A stretch of 64,000 bases of DNA from NCBI GenBank assembly GCA_022072165.1, contig JAJVIF010000002.1, forward strand, positions 124,001 to 188,000, written 5' to 3'. Below, piece by piece: positions 27,497 to 33,374 of this stretch. The stretch is from a bacterium. GTDB taxonomy: Bacteria; JAJVIF01. The position numbers and the translations under genes were made by a program. Every line of letters starts with the position of its first letter. The stretch's first letter is position 1. Below the pieces are notes generated by a model. The model was not told the DNA's origin and made no database searches. It saw nothing but the letters and a program-made list of their open reading frames with translations.

Positions 27497-28168
27497 TTAT
27501 GAAGAGGACACCGGGATGTTCGCGATGATGGCATCCACGAGGTTGTGCCAGACATTCGGCACCGGTGACAGCAGCACCTGTCCGGTCCCCTGGAAGACAC
27601 TGACGATCCCCTCGCCGGAAGCGGCGCTGGCCAGGAAGCCTTTGGACGCCCGCTGCAGGGAGTACTCCAGCGCACCGGTCCGGGCCACCGCAAAGCTCCC
27701 ATCGACCACGAGCTTGTCATTCACGAGGTTGATCGCCTCCAGCGGTCCGCTGGACTTGATCATGACGCGTCCATGCCCCTTTACCAGGGTCTGCCAAAAA
27801 CCCTCGCCACCGAAGAGGCCGGTCAGGGCTTTGTTGCGCCAGACCCCCACCTCGATGCCGATGTCAGAACAGACGTACGCGCCGCGGTCGAGGATGTACT
27901 CATGACCGGCGAGTTCGAGCATGGTGTACTCGCCGAAGATGGGGGGGCCGAAAAAGACCTGGCCCGTCCCGGTGTAGGTCGGGCGCACGATGGACTCCCC
28001 CGTGGCCATCGCTTTGAGAATGCCACCGGCCGACGGAGCCGCGACATCCATCTGAATCGGGCCTTGCATGTAGTGCAGTGCGCCAGCTTCCGCGCGGATG
28101 ACCTCATTGTTGAGGGTTGCGCGGATCATTTTCAGACCCTGCTTTTCGATGACTTCAAAGACTGCCAT
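27497..28168 (-). CDS. AIM24-family protein, copy 1
   Basis: This 223-residue protein is a beta-rich AIM24/TIGR00266-type protein. Landmarks are AGALHYMQGPIQMDV, GPPIFGEYTMLELAGHEYIL, RGAYVCSD and GFLASAASGEGIVSVFQGTG. Family members are of unknown function in bacteria; the yeast relative is a mitochondrial inner-membrane protein. A good ribosome-binding site (AGGGAGG) lies 5 bases before the ATG. It is the downstream copy of a tandem pair with the gene at 28249. Confidence 0.92.
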   Translation of the reverse strand: MAVFEVIEKQGLKMIRATLNNEVIRAEAGALHYMQGPIQMDVAAPSAGGILKAMATGESIVRPTYTGTGQVFFGPPIFGEYTMLELAGHEYILDRGAYVCSDIGIEVGVWRNKALTGLFGGEGFWQTLVKGHGRVMIKSSGPLEAINLVNDKLVVDGSFAVARTGALEYSLQRASKGFLASAASGEGIVSVFQGTGQVLLSPVPNVWHNLVDAIIANIPVSSS

Positions 28169-28248: not shown

Positions 28249-28920
28249 TCAGTCACTGCTCGTGGGGATAGCGGCGACCACGGCCTCGACCAGGTTATGC
28301 CAGGCATTGGGGACCGGACTTAAGAGGACCCGGCCGGACCCCTCAATGACATTCACGAAGCCTTCCCCCGACGCCGCACTGGCCAGAAACCCTTTCGTGG
28401 CTTTTTGATAGGTCAGAGTCAGGTCGCCGGTGCGGGCGACGGCGAAGCTGCCATCCACGACCAGCCGGTCGCTGTGGAGATCCAGGACTTCCAGCGGACC
28501 TGACGACTGGATGACTACGCGCCCAGTGCCACTGACTGTGGTCTGCCAGAGTCCCTCTGTCCCGAAAATACCCGTGAGTGTCTTGTTGCGCCAGACTCCG
28601 ACATCGATGCCGGCATCAGAGCAGACATAGGCACCGCGGTCGAGAATCCACTGGTGATTCGCCAGATCGAGCAAGGTGTACTCGCCAAAGATCGGTGGGC
28701 CGAAGTAGACCTCGCCGGTCCCGCGATAAGTCGGGCGGACCACCGACTCACCAGCAGCCATCGCCTTCAGGAATCCGGCGGCAGATGGGGCCGCGACATC
28801 CATCTGAATCGGCCCACGCATGTAATGCAGTGCGCCGGCCTCGCTGCGAATCAGTTCATCCTGTATGGTGGCCCGAATCATCTTCAGGCCCTGTTTCTCG
28901 ACGATCTCGAAGGTCGCCAT
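28249..28920 (-). CDS. AIM24-family protein, copy 2
   Basis: This 223-residue AIM24 protein is nearly collinear with the neighbouring copy: the same length, the same landmarks (AGALHYMRGPIQMDV, GPPIFGEYTLLDLANHQWIL, GFLASAASGEGFVNVIEGSG) and the same closing LLSPVPNAWHNLVEAVVAAI. It is 80 bases upstream of copy 1 on the same strand, so the pair arose by tandem duplication and probably forms an operon, perhaps a hetero-oligomer. Confidence 0.92.
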   Translation of the reverse strand: MATFEIVEKQGLKMIRATIQDELIRSEAGALHYMRGPIQMDVAAPSAAGFLKAMAAGESVVRPTYRGTGEVYFGPPIFGEYTLLDLANHQWILDRGAYVCSDAGIDVGVWRNKTLTGIFGTEGLWQTTVSGTGRVVIQSSGPLEVLDLHSDRLVVDGSFAVARTGDLTLTYQKATKGFLASAASGEGFVNVIEGSGRVLLSPVPNAWHNLVEAVVAAIPTSSD

Positions 28921-29622: not shown

Positions 29623-31827
29623 ATGAGTCTGGGCTACGGGAAGTTTCTGACCCCGGCACTGGAACAGGAACTCGCCACACTGGCGCAGAAGTACGGGTAC
29701 ACGCCGGGGCACTTCCATGTCGCCTTTTCGCTGGCGCAGTCCTTTTCTGGCCGCCGCAAGCAACAACTGCGCGAGAACCTGGAATATCTGATCCAGAATC
29801 CCGGGATCAATCAGGATGCTCTGGAAAAGTGGCTGCAGACCCAGCTGGCGGAGAGTAAAGATGCAAAGCGTTATGACACCTTCCGACTGAAGCGGCTGGA
29901 AGTACAAAACTTTGGCCCCTTTCCTGAATTGCAGATGGAGTTTGCGACCAGCAAAGAGCAACCAATCACGCTGTTAGGGGCCCACAACGGACGCGGAAAG
30001 ACCTCACTTTTTCGGGCGATCCGCGCGGCACTCTATGGCATGGAGCCGGACAACTTCAAGGAGCGAAGTCCGCTGTACAACGACGGCGCGAACGGCTCCA
30101 CAATGCGATTCACGCTCCTGCTTGAAGACGGCGAATCTCAGGTGTCGACCCTCACCCGGGAGTACCACTACCGTCTCAGCAGTGCCAGGCCAGTGCAGAC
30201 TCACGAAACAGTTTCATTGAAACGGGGTACCTGGGTCCTGCGAGATGATCAGGTCCGTGAAGAGATCGAGCAATTCCTGCCCAGTGCGCTTTCTGGGTAC
30301 TTTTTCTTTGATGCTGACGACCAGATTCAACAGTTCCTCAACAACCAGGAGGGCACACTGCGGGCAGGCATCGAGCGTATTCTGGGCATCGAGCAGCTCA
30401 ACGAACTGGAAAAGCAGATCGAGGCACTCCGCTCACAGAGTAGCAAGAAGTACAAGCAGGTCACCGAGGCCAAAGGCAGCGTCACGCAGAAGCAGATTCA
30501 GGAACAGCTGGATGAACTGGAGGCCGAGCAGGCCAAACTTGGTGTTGCCCGAGAACAAGCCCTACAGCGACTGAAACAGTCGGAAGCTGATCTGGCAACC
30601 ATCAATGCGGACATCGACAAGCTCCTCACCGTATTCGATCCGCAACTCCATCAGGAATATGATCAGGCGACGCAACGACTGGGAGCCTTGGTGGGGGAGT
30701 ACGGGCAGATCGAGGAAGAGCTTGAGAAGCTCGCGCGGGAATCGCTCCCACTCTTCCTGATCATGGCTGAGGTCGAGGATCTTCTCGGCCAGGCGCAAAG
30801 CCAACGTCTGCAGAGCAGCGGTTCAGGTGTGGCAGAAGCCATCAGCGAATTGCACACCCGGGCGAGTCAGATCTTCCGACGATACAGCTATGACGAAGAG
30901 CATCTGGAGCAGATCTTTCGCCCGTATCAGTCGCTGCTGCAGGAAACCACCGCAGAGTTCGGTGCCCTGGAGTACACCCAGCAGCAGGTACGAGCCCTCG
31001 AAGAGCTGTTGCAGCAGCGGGCTGGGAGTCGTCGCTTTGCCGAAGTTCTCTCTCAACGGGGAACGCTGCTTGAGTCCATGGAGTCGCTCAATCGCAGGAA
31101 AAATGCCCTGATTCCGCCCAAAACTGAGATGGCAGAACGCCACAAAATCCTGCAGGCTGATCGCGACCGGCTGTTGCGGGAGGCCGATGCCCTGCGCATT
31201 GAGCTGCGGCAGCAGGAAGAGCAGCAACGCGATTTAGCCAAGCAGCAGGCATCGCTCAGAGAGCGGGCAGGGAAGGATGAGGACTTTTCATCTGATCTCA
31301 ATGCACTCAGTCGGCTCATCGAACAGATCGACGCCTTTCGCAGCTTCATCAACGACGCGGGAAAAGCCTTCCGGGCCAGCCGTGTCAGCGCACTGGAAGA
31401 GGCGGCGACTCACGCCTACGCCCTGATCACCAACAAGCCTGATATGGATCGCCGGATCGTCATCGATCCGGAGACCTTCGCAGCCAGCCTCCACCTGGAG
31501 AGGAAAGTCCTGTCGATGTACAGCCACTCGGCCGGTGAGCAGCAGATTATTGCCATGGCCCTGGTAGCTGGGCTTGCACGAACTGCAGAACGCGGAGTGC
31601 CAATGATCATCGATACTCCGCTGGCCCGGCTCGATCAACTCCATCGGGAAAATCTCTGCAGTCACTTCTTTCCCAAGGTGGCAGAGCAGGTGGTGATCCT
31701 CTCGACGGACTCTGAAATCATCGGACCACTCCATCAGCTTCTGAAACCGGCTGTCGGCCTGGAGTATCTGATCGATCGTCATGCAGGTGGCAAGGAACAT
31801 TCGTATTTGCGGGAGGGCTACTTCTAA
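29623..31827 (+). CDS. DndD-like SMC-type ATPase with extra N-terminal domain
   Basis: This 734-residue protein has an ABC/SMC-type ATPase split by long coiled coils (about 250-600). Walker A is GAHNGRGKTS (119-128). FFFDADDQIQ (227-236) matches the FFFDGE element of DndD-like ATPases. The signature SAGEQ is at 636-640 and the Walker B region IIDTPLARLD is at 662-671, followed by QLHRENL, a strong DndD hallmark. DndD is the ATPase of the DndBCDE/DndCDE phosphorothioation complex that inserts sulfur into DNA. Unlike typical DndD, about 85 extra helical residues precede the ATPase. Its last base is the first base of the next gene's ATG (TAATG). GAGGAA precedes the start. G+C is visibly lower than in neighbours. 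Confidence 0.85.
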   Translation: MSLGYGKFLTPALEQELATLAQKYGYTPGHFHVAFSLAQSFSGRRKQQLRENLEYLIQNPGINQDALEKWLQTQLAESKDAKRYDTFRLKRLEVQNFGPFPELQMEFATSKEQPITLLGAHNGRGKTSLFRAIRAALYGMEPDNFKERSPLYNDGANGSTMRFTLLLEDGESQVSTLTREYHYRLSSARPVQTHETVSLKRGTWVLRDDQVREEIEQFLPSALSGYFFFDADDQIQQFLNNQEGTLRAGIERILGIEQLNELEKQIEALRSQSSKKYKQVTEAKGSVTQKQIQEQLDELEAEQAKLGVAREQALQRLKQSEADLATINADIDKLLTVFDPQLHQEYDQATQRLGALVGEYGQIEEELEKLARESLPLFLIMAEVEDLLGQAQSQRLQSSGSGVAEAISELHTRASQIFRRYSYDEEHLEQIFRPYQSLLQETTAEFGALEYTQQQVRALEELLQQRAGSRRFAEVLSQRGTLLESMESLNRRKNALIPPKTEMAERHKILQADRDRLLREADALRIELRQQEEQQRDLAKQQASLRERAGKDEDFSSDLNALSRLIEQIDAFRSFINDAGKAFRASRVSALEEAATHAYALITNKPDMDRRIVIDPETFAASLHLERKVLSMYSHSAGEQQIIAMALVAGLARTAERGVPMIIDTPLARLDQLHRENLCSHFFPKVAEQVVILSTDSEIIGPLHQLLKPAVGLEYLIDRHAGGKEHSYLREGYF

Positions 31828-33374
31828 TGTCCCAGTACATCGCTTACTCCACCGACACCCTGGCAAGGCTCAAAATCCTCGCCGATGGCCTGAATTGGGA
31901 GCAGAACGCCGTCGCACGGCTGGCAGTGGCTGCCGGGTTCCGGCTGTATTCGCATCAGGAGGTCGCCAATCATGTTCCAGGCAAGCTGAGCGGAAGCTAT
32001 CTTCACGATTCGCAGCTCGATTCTGAGCAGAACCAAATCCGTATCTTCAAGCTACTGGTCGAGCACCGAGAGGGCCGCCGCCTGGATCAGGTCGATGCCA
32101 ATGACTGGCTCATTAAGTACCTCGATCTGGGTGCAAGCCGTCTCCACGAAGCCTGGGAAGGACGCGATGAGGACAAGTACAAATTCTTCGCCTTCCTGCG
32201 CGACCTCCTGACGACCACGTCTGTCCCCGATACCCTGTCAGCGCTTGTCTCCAGTGCACCTCAAATCCTGCTCGGAACGGATCAACAGGGGAAACCGATC
32301 CGGTTCTGCCCCAATCAGGAAGGGGGGCTTCGCAACGCAGCGCACCTGGCGATCGCTGGCACCACTGGGGTGGGCAAGACCCAGGTGTCCCTGGCGCTGA
32401 TCGACCAGACGCTGCGGCAATCACCCCAGACAGGCTGTCTGATTCTGGATTACAAGGGAGACATCTCGAAGTCTCAAGGGACACTGCTCAAAGAACTCGG
32501 TTTCGTGGTCTACGAGGCTGGAAGGCAAGCACTACCACTCAATCCGCTCTTTCTGCCACCTGGCATCCATCCTGGCATCGCTGCTCAGAGCCTCACCCAG
32601 CGACTGTCCGACATCCAACGCCTTGGCCCTGTACAAATGCACCTGATACGGGAGTCCGCTCACGAGCTTTTCGAGGAGCGTGAAGCGCAGGTCCCGACCC
32701 TCGCAGCCTTCCGGGAAATGCTGCTCGCGAAGTATGAGGCGTCCGGAAAGGGGGGCAGGCCCGACACTGCCATCGGGCTGCTCAGCGACATCGCTGAGTT
32801 CAACCTCTTTCAGGGTGAAACCGGCCTGGACCCCACCACGTTTCTCTCAAAAAGGATCGTCATTGACTTCTCCGGCACCGAAGCCTTTCGCGATCTGGTC
32901 GCCTTCTTTCTCCTCAATTACATCAACAACGGCATGAAGCTGCTGGGCGATGCACCAGTCCATCAGGGACCGGATGGCACCCGTTACCGCGAGATGCGAA
33001 CCCTGATCTTCATCGATGAAGCGCATCACTATCTGAGTGCGAAGGCAAGCCCGGTTTATGACATCGTGCGGGAAGCCCGGTCCTTCGGGGTCGCACTCTG
33101 GCTTTCGACCCAGTCACTGACAGACTTCCAGTCAGATAACGACGAGCTCACCACCAACCTGTCTACCTGGCTGCTGTTCAAGCCAGGCAGTAACCCAACA
33201 CCTGCGAACAAGCTGCAGGGCTATCTGAGTCTCGACAAAAAGGGGGCGGAAGCCATCGCAAACGATCTGCCACGCCTTAGCAACGGGGAGTGCTACGCCA
33301 ACGTGGACGGCACACCCAAGCGGGTGAAAGCCGTTCAGCTCTACAACAAAGCGACCTGGCAGAACCTCGGCTGA
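31827..33374 (+). CDS. DndE domain fused to HerA/FtsK-like ATPase
   Basis: Residues 1-115 of this 515-residue protein resemble DndE: a first helix-rich segment ARLKILADGLNWEQNAVARL and a closing WLIKYLDLGASRLHEAW. DndE is the small tetrameric DNA-binding subunit of Dnd complexes. From about 145 on it is a HerA/DUF87/VirB4-like ATPase: Walker A GTTGVGKTQ (178-186), CLILDYKGD (204-212), Walker B IFIDEAHHYL (394-403) and the sensor region LWLSTQSLTDF. Such ATPases form hexameric DNA pumps. Fusion implies a DNA translocase recruited through the DndE part. It is translationally coupled to the DndD-like gene. Confidence 0.82.
   Translation: MSQYIAYSTDTLARLKILADGLNWEQNAVARLAVAAGFRLYSHQEVANHVPGKLSGSYLHDSQLDSEQNQIRIFKLLVEHREGRRLDQVDANDWLIKYLDLGASRLHEAWEGRDEDKYKFFAFLRDLLTTTSVPDTLSALVSSAPQILLGTDQQGKPIRFCPNQEGGLRNAAHLAIAGTTGVGKTQVSLALIDQTLRQSPQTGCLILDYKGDISKSQGTLLKELGFVVYEAGRQALPLNPLFLPPGIHPGIAAQSLTQRLSDIQRLGPVQMHLIRESAHELFEEREAQVPTLAAFREMLLAKYEASGKGGRPDTAIGLLSDIAEFNLFQGETGLDPTTFLSKRIVIDFSGTEAFRDLVAFFLLNYINNGMKLLGDAPVHQGPDGTRYREMRTLIFIDEAHHYLSAKASPVYDIVREARSFGVALWLSTQSLTDFQSDNDELTTNLSTWLLFKPGSNPTPANKLQGYLSLDKKGAEAIANDLPRLSNGECYANVDGTPKRVKAVQLYNKATWQNLG

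Follow-up and report, generated by a model that had tools for sequence, protein, structure and literature searches.

A coupled DndD and DndE-HerA gene pair in a bacterial genome without detectable phosphorothioation enzymes

Two genes are encoded on the forward strand of the analyzed window, a stretch of 64,000 nucleotides of bacterial DNA. Both open reading frames were found at the positions given in the initial annotation, and they are coupled as it had stated, with one base common to both (TAATG, 31825-31829). The genes and their parts are the following.

29623-31827, + strand: gene 1, open reading frame of 734 aa, DndD
29623..29886, + strand: N-terminal extension of DndD, 88 residues (the region before residue 89), possible fused DndC docking tail
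29887..31827, + strand: DndD proper, ABC/Rad50-like ATPase with a coiled coil and no CxC hook (TIGR03185, motifs)
31827-33374, + strand: gene 2, open reading frame of 515 aa, DndE-like domain plus DndH-type HerA ATPase (DndEi)
31827..32162, + strand: DndE-like domain with two ribbon-helix-helix units (family profile, AlphaFold model)
32232..33374, + strand: HerA/FtsK-type ATPase domain closest to the DndH C-domain (PADLOC, fold search, motifs)

The unit consists of two genes, with no third member in the window neighborhood. It is flanked by a rhodanese-like gene on the minus strand on one side and by a small membrane-protein-like gene followed by thrS on the minus strand on the other (names assigned by eye), and no recognizable defense genes adjoin it in the 64-kb window. 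Upstream of the rhodanese-like gene, two genes of 223 residues each, closely similar and AIM24-like by eye, lie in tandem (27497-28168 and 28249-28920). The G+C contents of the two genes, 57.1% and 58.4% compared to 62.5% for the window, agree with the transfer proposed earlier, but their GC3 values of 0.67 and 0.70 are inside the spread of the neighboring open reading frames (mean 0.73, SD 0.06), so that composition is weak support for transfer.

By profile match and motifs, gene 1 is DndD. Residues 89-734 matched the NCBIfam DndD model TIGR03185 at 270.1 bits against a cut-off of 245.85, and the PADLOC DndD model was matched at 2.6e-84; both models begin at residue 89. The ABC motifs Walker A GAHNGRGKT (119), signature SAGE (636), and Walker B IIDTP (662) are intact. 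The sole cysteine, residue 679, is located outside the coiled coil, and thus there is no CxC zinc hook. In the genome search no second DndD was detected besides the window copy.

The N-terminal domain of gene 2, searched alone against DndE models, gave no match. PF08870 DndE was matched by 11 of the 12 aligned members of its family, and the family profile matched the solved DndE chains 7x4e, 5wtu, and 4lrv with E-values of 1.4e-8, 1.3e-6, and 1.3e-5, respectively. When compared to the profile of the other 11 members, the window domain aligned over its full length with 11.8 bits, the best of 2000 shuffles reaching 7.6. The AlphaFold model of the region contains two strand-helix-helix units, the last helix being long (E4-8, H9-22, H26-40 and E54-60, H70-82, H88-111), the architecture typical of all DndE (Rakesh et al. 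2024, PMC10853773). On the family profile and the model, not on a direct match to a DndE model, the domain is classified as a DndE-like double ribbon-helix-helix, and the N-terminal 115 residues are DndE-like as initially read.

In the remainder of gene 2, residues 145-452 matched PADLOC DndH (2.2e-35). Among solved structures, the DndH C-domain (PDB 7es4) was the closest (Z 38.4, 350 residues, rmsd 2.2), followed by VirB4 (Z 28.7); the fold search was dominated by the ATPase domain and is therefore uninformative on the DndE part. The HerA motifs Walker A GTTGVGKT (178) and Walker B LIFIDEAHH (393) are intact, and gene 2 as a query found only itself in the genome. The match to the mad8 (MADS) model, 3.5e-18, was weaker than that to DndH, and the neighboring genes for an eight-gene mad cluster are missing. 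The assignments of DndD to gene 1 and of DndE-like plus HerA domains to gene 2, first made from the sequence alone, are borne out by these matches. Pfam, NCBIfam, and PADLOC detected no nuclease domain in the two proteins, which makes direct cutting unlikely. A DNA-sensing and translocating or degrading machine had been suggested; sensing and translocation are a fair inference, whereas degradation is unsupported.

The genome (3.26 Mb, 4 contigs, 99.1% complete) was searched for the sulfur chemistry of the Dnd and Ssp systems. The PAPS-reductase domain PF01507 was found in 0 proteins of the whole genome, the same search being positive in 14 of 14 control genomes, and no match was obtained for DndC (TIGR03183) or DndB (TIGR03187). 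SspD, the PAPS-reductase-like enzyme of Ssp, was likewise not found, there being no PF01507 match in the genome. The PAPS-reductase-like group includes both DndC and SspD (review PMC12707154), so the established ways of making phosphorothioate seem to be closed to this genome. The absence of DndC and DndB noted earlier within 29 kb of the pair thus extends to the genome, DndA/IscS being immaterial where DndC is missing, and a dndABC cluster elsewhere was not found.

DndD-DndEi loci from several phyla were recovered by scanning GTDB contigs and by targeted searches of genomes, so that the two-gene neighborhood which the initial annotation had proposed to look for in other genomes does recur. 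The damaged loci L013, L028, and L093 were excluded from the counts; L023 is the same contig as L085, and L011 the same as L026. Among the 18 other usable DndD-DndEi loci listed, four encode a full DndC (L022, L024, L065, and L084) and 14 carry a DndC-tail open reading frame in its place (L010, L011, L012, L015, L016, L019, L020, L021, L023, L025, L027, L064, L066, and L067), a split that describes the pattern-based sample and should not be read as a frequency. The pair's reading frames are interrupted in L025 and L027. Where DndD adjoined a stand-alone DndE in a sample of other genomes, DndC was present (L086, L088, L090, L091, and L093).

The tail open reading frame is 60-80 residues long, is homologous only to the DndC C-terminus, and is located upstream of DndD, either directly or with one to three small genes between them. 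Eight of the tails were detected by the NCBI DndC model (TIGR03183) below its cut-off, at model positions 384-447, with one more in the damaged L013. This segment is homologous to E. coli DndC 435-484. In E. coli B7A, DndC 433-482 binds the DndD globular domain, as modeled and tested in 2025, and L458D/E462A/R471A abolishes the contact (PMC12193691); L458, E462, and R471 are present at those numbers in the E. coli DndC sequence used here. The tail is the DndD-binding segment of DndC by this homology, so tail-type operons keep the DndD-docking plug and lack the sulfur enzyme. A full DndC is encoded elsewhere in two tail-type genomes (G104 with L019 and G111 with L027), and a DndC missing from the locus is therefore not always missing from the genome. 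In L011, the tail, DndD, and DndEi stand alone. The DndD coiled coil of this locus (L011:9766-11865) contains a CYLC motif resembling a Rad50-type zinc hook, though its partner is a DndE-HerA fusion. The tail is also present in L013 of Desulfoferrobacter (L013:9271-11026), where an apparent internal deletion joins the start of DndD to the HerA part of DndEi.

A degenerate remnant of a DndC-DndD-DndEi phosphorothioation locus, nonfunctional and in decay after the loss of dndC and dndB, would fit the DndC-containing relatives and the decayed copies elsewhere (the internal deletion in L013, and L028 and L093). Such an origin of the window pair is nevertheless improbable, because its open reading frames are full length and coupled, with Walker and signature motifs intact, and because the tail replaces DndC in the 14 other listed loci, from several phyla and mostly intact, which makes life without the sulfur enzyme a recurrent state.

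At the window pair, no separate DndC-tail open reading frame was found upstream of DndD; the 88-residue extension of gene 1 occupies the position where the tail would be. Its start codon ATG is preceded by GAGGA, with an in-frame stop 5 codons upstream, and four helices are predicted with low confidence (11-24, 28-38, 44-57, and 64-79). In hhalign, the extension scored 17.45 against the DndC-tail profile, a value that one of 700 shuffles attained, but none of 82 coiled-coil pieces and none of 64 other pieces; with a wider tail profile its score was reached by 0 of 600 shuffles and 0 of 82 control pieces. The hhalign probability was 5-8%, and the global alignment set the first helices of the extension on the tail and brought an RR pair into register. 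As a tail homologue the extension gave a nonsignificant 1.2 bits in HMMER, and pairwise global (BLOSUM) tests were negative. Its assignment as a certain DndC tail was dropped, as HMMER, pairwise BLOSUM, and coiled-coil controls lend it no support and only hhalign does so, weakly. A fused DndC docking tail is a possible, suggestive reading of the extension. In L093, a damaged canonical dnd locus, the DndC tail and DndD share one open frame.

Proteins similar to HsdM and HsdS are encoded upstream in 7 of the 14 listed tail-type operons (L012, L016, L020, L021, L023, L027, and L064; phmmer). In L012, the Pfam matches were N6_Mtase with HSDR_N_2, and Methylase_S, and the PADLOC matches were MTase_I at 8e-153 and Specificity_I at 5e-29. 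The gene order in L012:1892-10318, and also in the other six, is HsdM, HsdS, small protein, DndC tail, DndD, and DndEi. One to three proteins of about 210 residues are encoded in the HsdM/HsdS loci and in L010, L015, L019, and L025. Several of those scanned matched RAMA or Mrr_N, some Mrr_N scores being just below the cut-off, and the one from L023 had no Pfam match, yet is related to the others. This gene content suggests that in HsdM/HsdS-type operons N6-methyladenine may be the self mark and the proteins of about 210 residues its readers. Toxin-antitoxin-like genes are often interposed, by eye a zeta toxin in L023, a macro domain in L020, and a RhuM-like gene in L025. In two Bacteroidota loci (L066:7750-9954 and L067:7688-9688), a shared protein of about 700 residues with a sigma-70 region 4-like match is encoded directly upstream of tail, DndD, and DndEi, in place of the HsdM/HsdS-type partners.

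Both HsdM/HsdS and the small RAMA- or Mrr_N-like proteins are missing at the window pair. The pair might instead rely on a DNA mark introduced by an enzyme encoded at another site in the genome, such as one of the N6-adenine methylase-like proteins of contig C1, as the HsdM/HsdS genes in the same operon in seven relatives and three N6_Mtase-like matches in the window's genome would allow. This is unlikely, since all three are on C1, a different contig from that of the pair, are solitary or type IIG-like by eye, and have no HsdS-like or RAMA gene beside them, and since no RAMA domain was found in the genome; they were rejected as dedicated partners of the pair for lack of such neighbors. A 923-residue protein of the same genome (G000:C1:39126-41897, L038:8126-10897) resembles a type IIG restriction-methylase, MmeI-like by eye.

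The pair was absent from 3 of 3 genomes of the same class that were searched. The thrS flanks in the same-class genomes were not syntenic with the window, so the empty-site comparison is uninformative. Viral carriage was considered and rejected, as no relative was found in IMG/VR and the phage and plasmid hits consisted of DndH proteins or HerA-like matches. End resection likewise involves Rad50- and HerA-like ATPases (Rad50/HerA-NurA), and the pair is chromosomal, between housekeeping genes (rhodanese-like, thrS), but a role in chromosome repair or segregation rather than defense is the least probable of the alternatives, given the absence from the same-class genomes, the patchy distribution across the domain, and the restriction-modification and toxin-antitoxin-like genes adjoining the relatives. 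The patchy distribution and these neighbors make defense the likeliest role.

The architecture itself is not new. Clade-3 DndE-HerA fusions beside a DndD-related ABC ATPase, with the two-gene arrangement and DndH-like HerA domain of the window, and DndDE dyads without phosphorothioation genes have been described (Rakesh, Aravind and Krishnan 2024, PMC10853773). PbeABCD, or CxC-DndE (PMC6459918, reinterpreted in PMC10853773), likewise combines an ABC ATPase with a DndE-type protein, sometimes without phosphorothioation genes; the window DndD differs in having no CxC hook and the window DndE in its fusion to HerA, and PbeA, the HKD nuclease/SF2 helicase protein, was not found beside the pair. 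PbeABCD was reported to halt viral replication without cleavage (PMC6459918), which Rakesh et al. disputed (PMC10853773). The HerA domain of gene 2 is closest to the C-domain of DndH from DndFGH, but the remainder of DndH is missing and a DndE domain is in its place. In phosphorothioation systems containing DndEi, DndE is also fused to a helicase/ATPase domain and encoded with dnd genes, and DndEi was essential for the modification in another species according to Zheng et al. (2016, JBC, as cited in PMC7464106); in the window's genome, in contrast, DndC, DndB, and the PAPS-reductase domain were not found. Going by that citation, and by the four loci that keep DndC, the family is not sulfur-free everywhere. 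What stands out at the window pair is the missing sulfur chemistry, not the fusion. Among open-licence papers, none was found to describe a DndC docking tail standing alone or DndD-DndEi operons that include HsdM/HsdS, and priority is not thereby established.

The reading preferred here, with a probability of roughly 0.6, is that the window pair is a minimal Dnd core independent of sulfur, whose Rad50-like DndD clamp and ribbon-helix-helix/HerA subunit scan and pump DNA, probably against invaders. DndD heads have been modeled as Rad50-like and dimerizing, with DndE docking on DndD coiled coil-2 (PMC12193691). In the minimal core, a DndD dimer would form the Rad50-like DNA clamp, and the DndE part would bind DNA through its two ribbon-helix-helix units and dock on the coiled coil of DndD. 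DNA would be pumped by the DndH-type HerA motor, which its fusion to DndE would place on the clamp. In canonical systems, a DndC segment of about 50 residues plugs into the DndD head; most DndD-DndEi operons keep only this plug, as a micro-protein, and in the window's genome it would either have become the 88-residue extension of DndD or have disappeared. Incoming DNA is most likely scanned by the complex, which, with no cutting of its own, would block it or pass it to host nucleases. Complex formation, DNA pumping, the defense role, and sparing of self DNA are what we infer from the genes and their relatives.

It is tentatively proposed, at somewhat less than even odds, that DndD-DndEi forms a sulfur-free DNA-surveillance family, in which DndC has shrunk to a docking plug and either type I-like adenine methylation or no mark at all has taken the place of sulfur. 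The window pair, its plug fused to DndD, would be the family's extreme case of reduction.

Sulfur in the DNA backbone is the defining feature of Dnd. If a mostly intact, recurrent family holds only the scanner, the motor, and the plug, the scanner would be the portable part of the system and the mark interchangeable. The role of DndD and DndE would then be directly accessible without phosphorothioation, in a system whose mere two genes make reconstitution feasible. The 60-residue plug open reading frame, a subthreshold fragment for the NCBI DndC model that is easily overlooked in annotation, would offer a practical handle.
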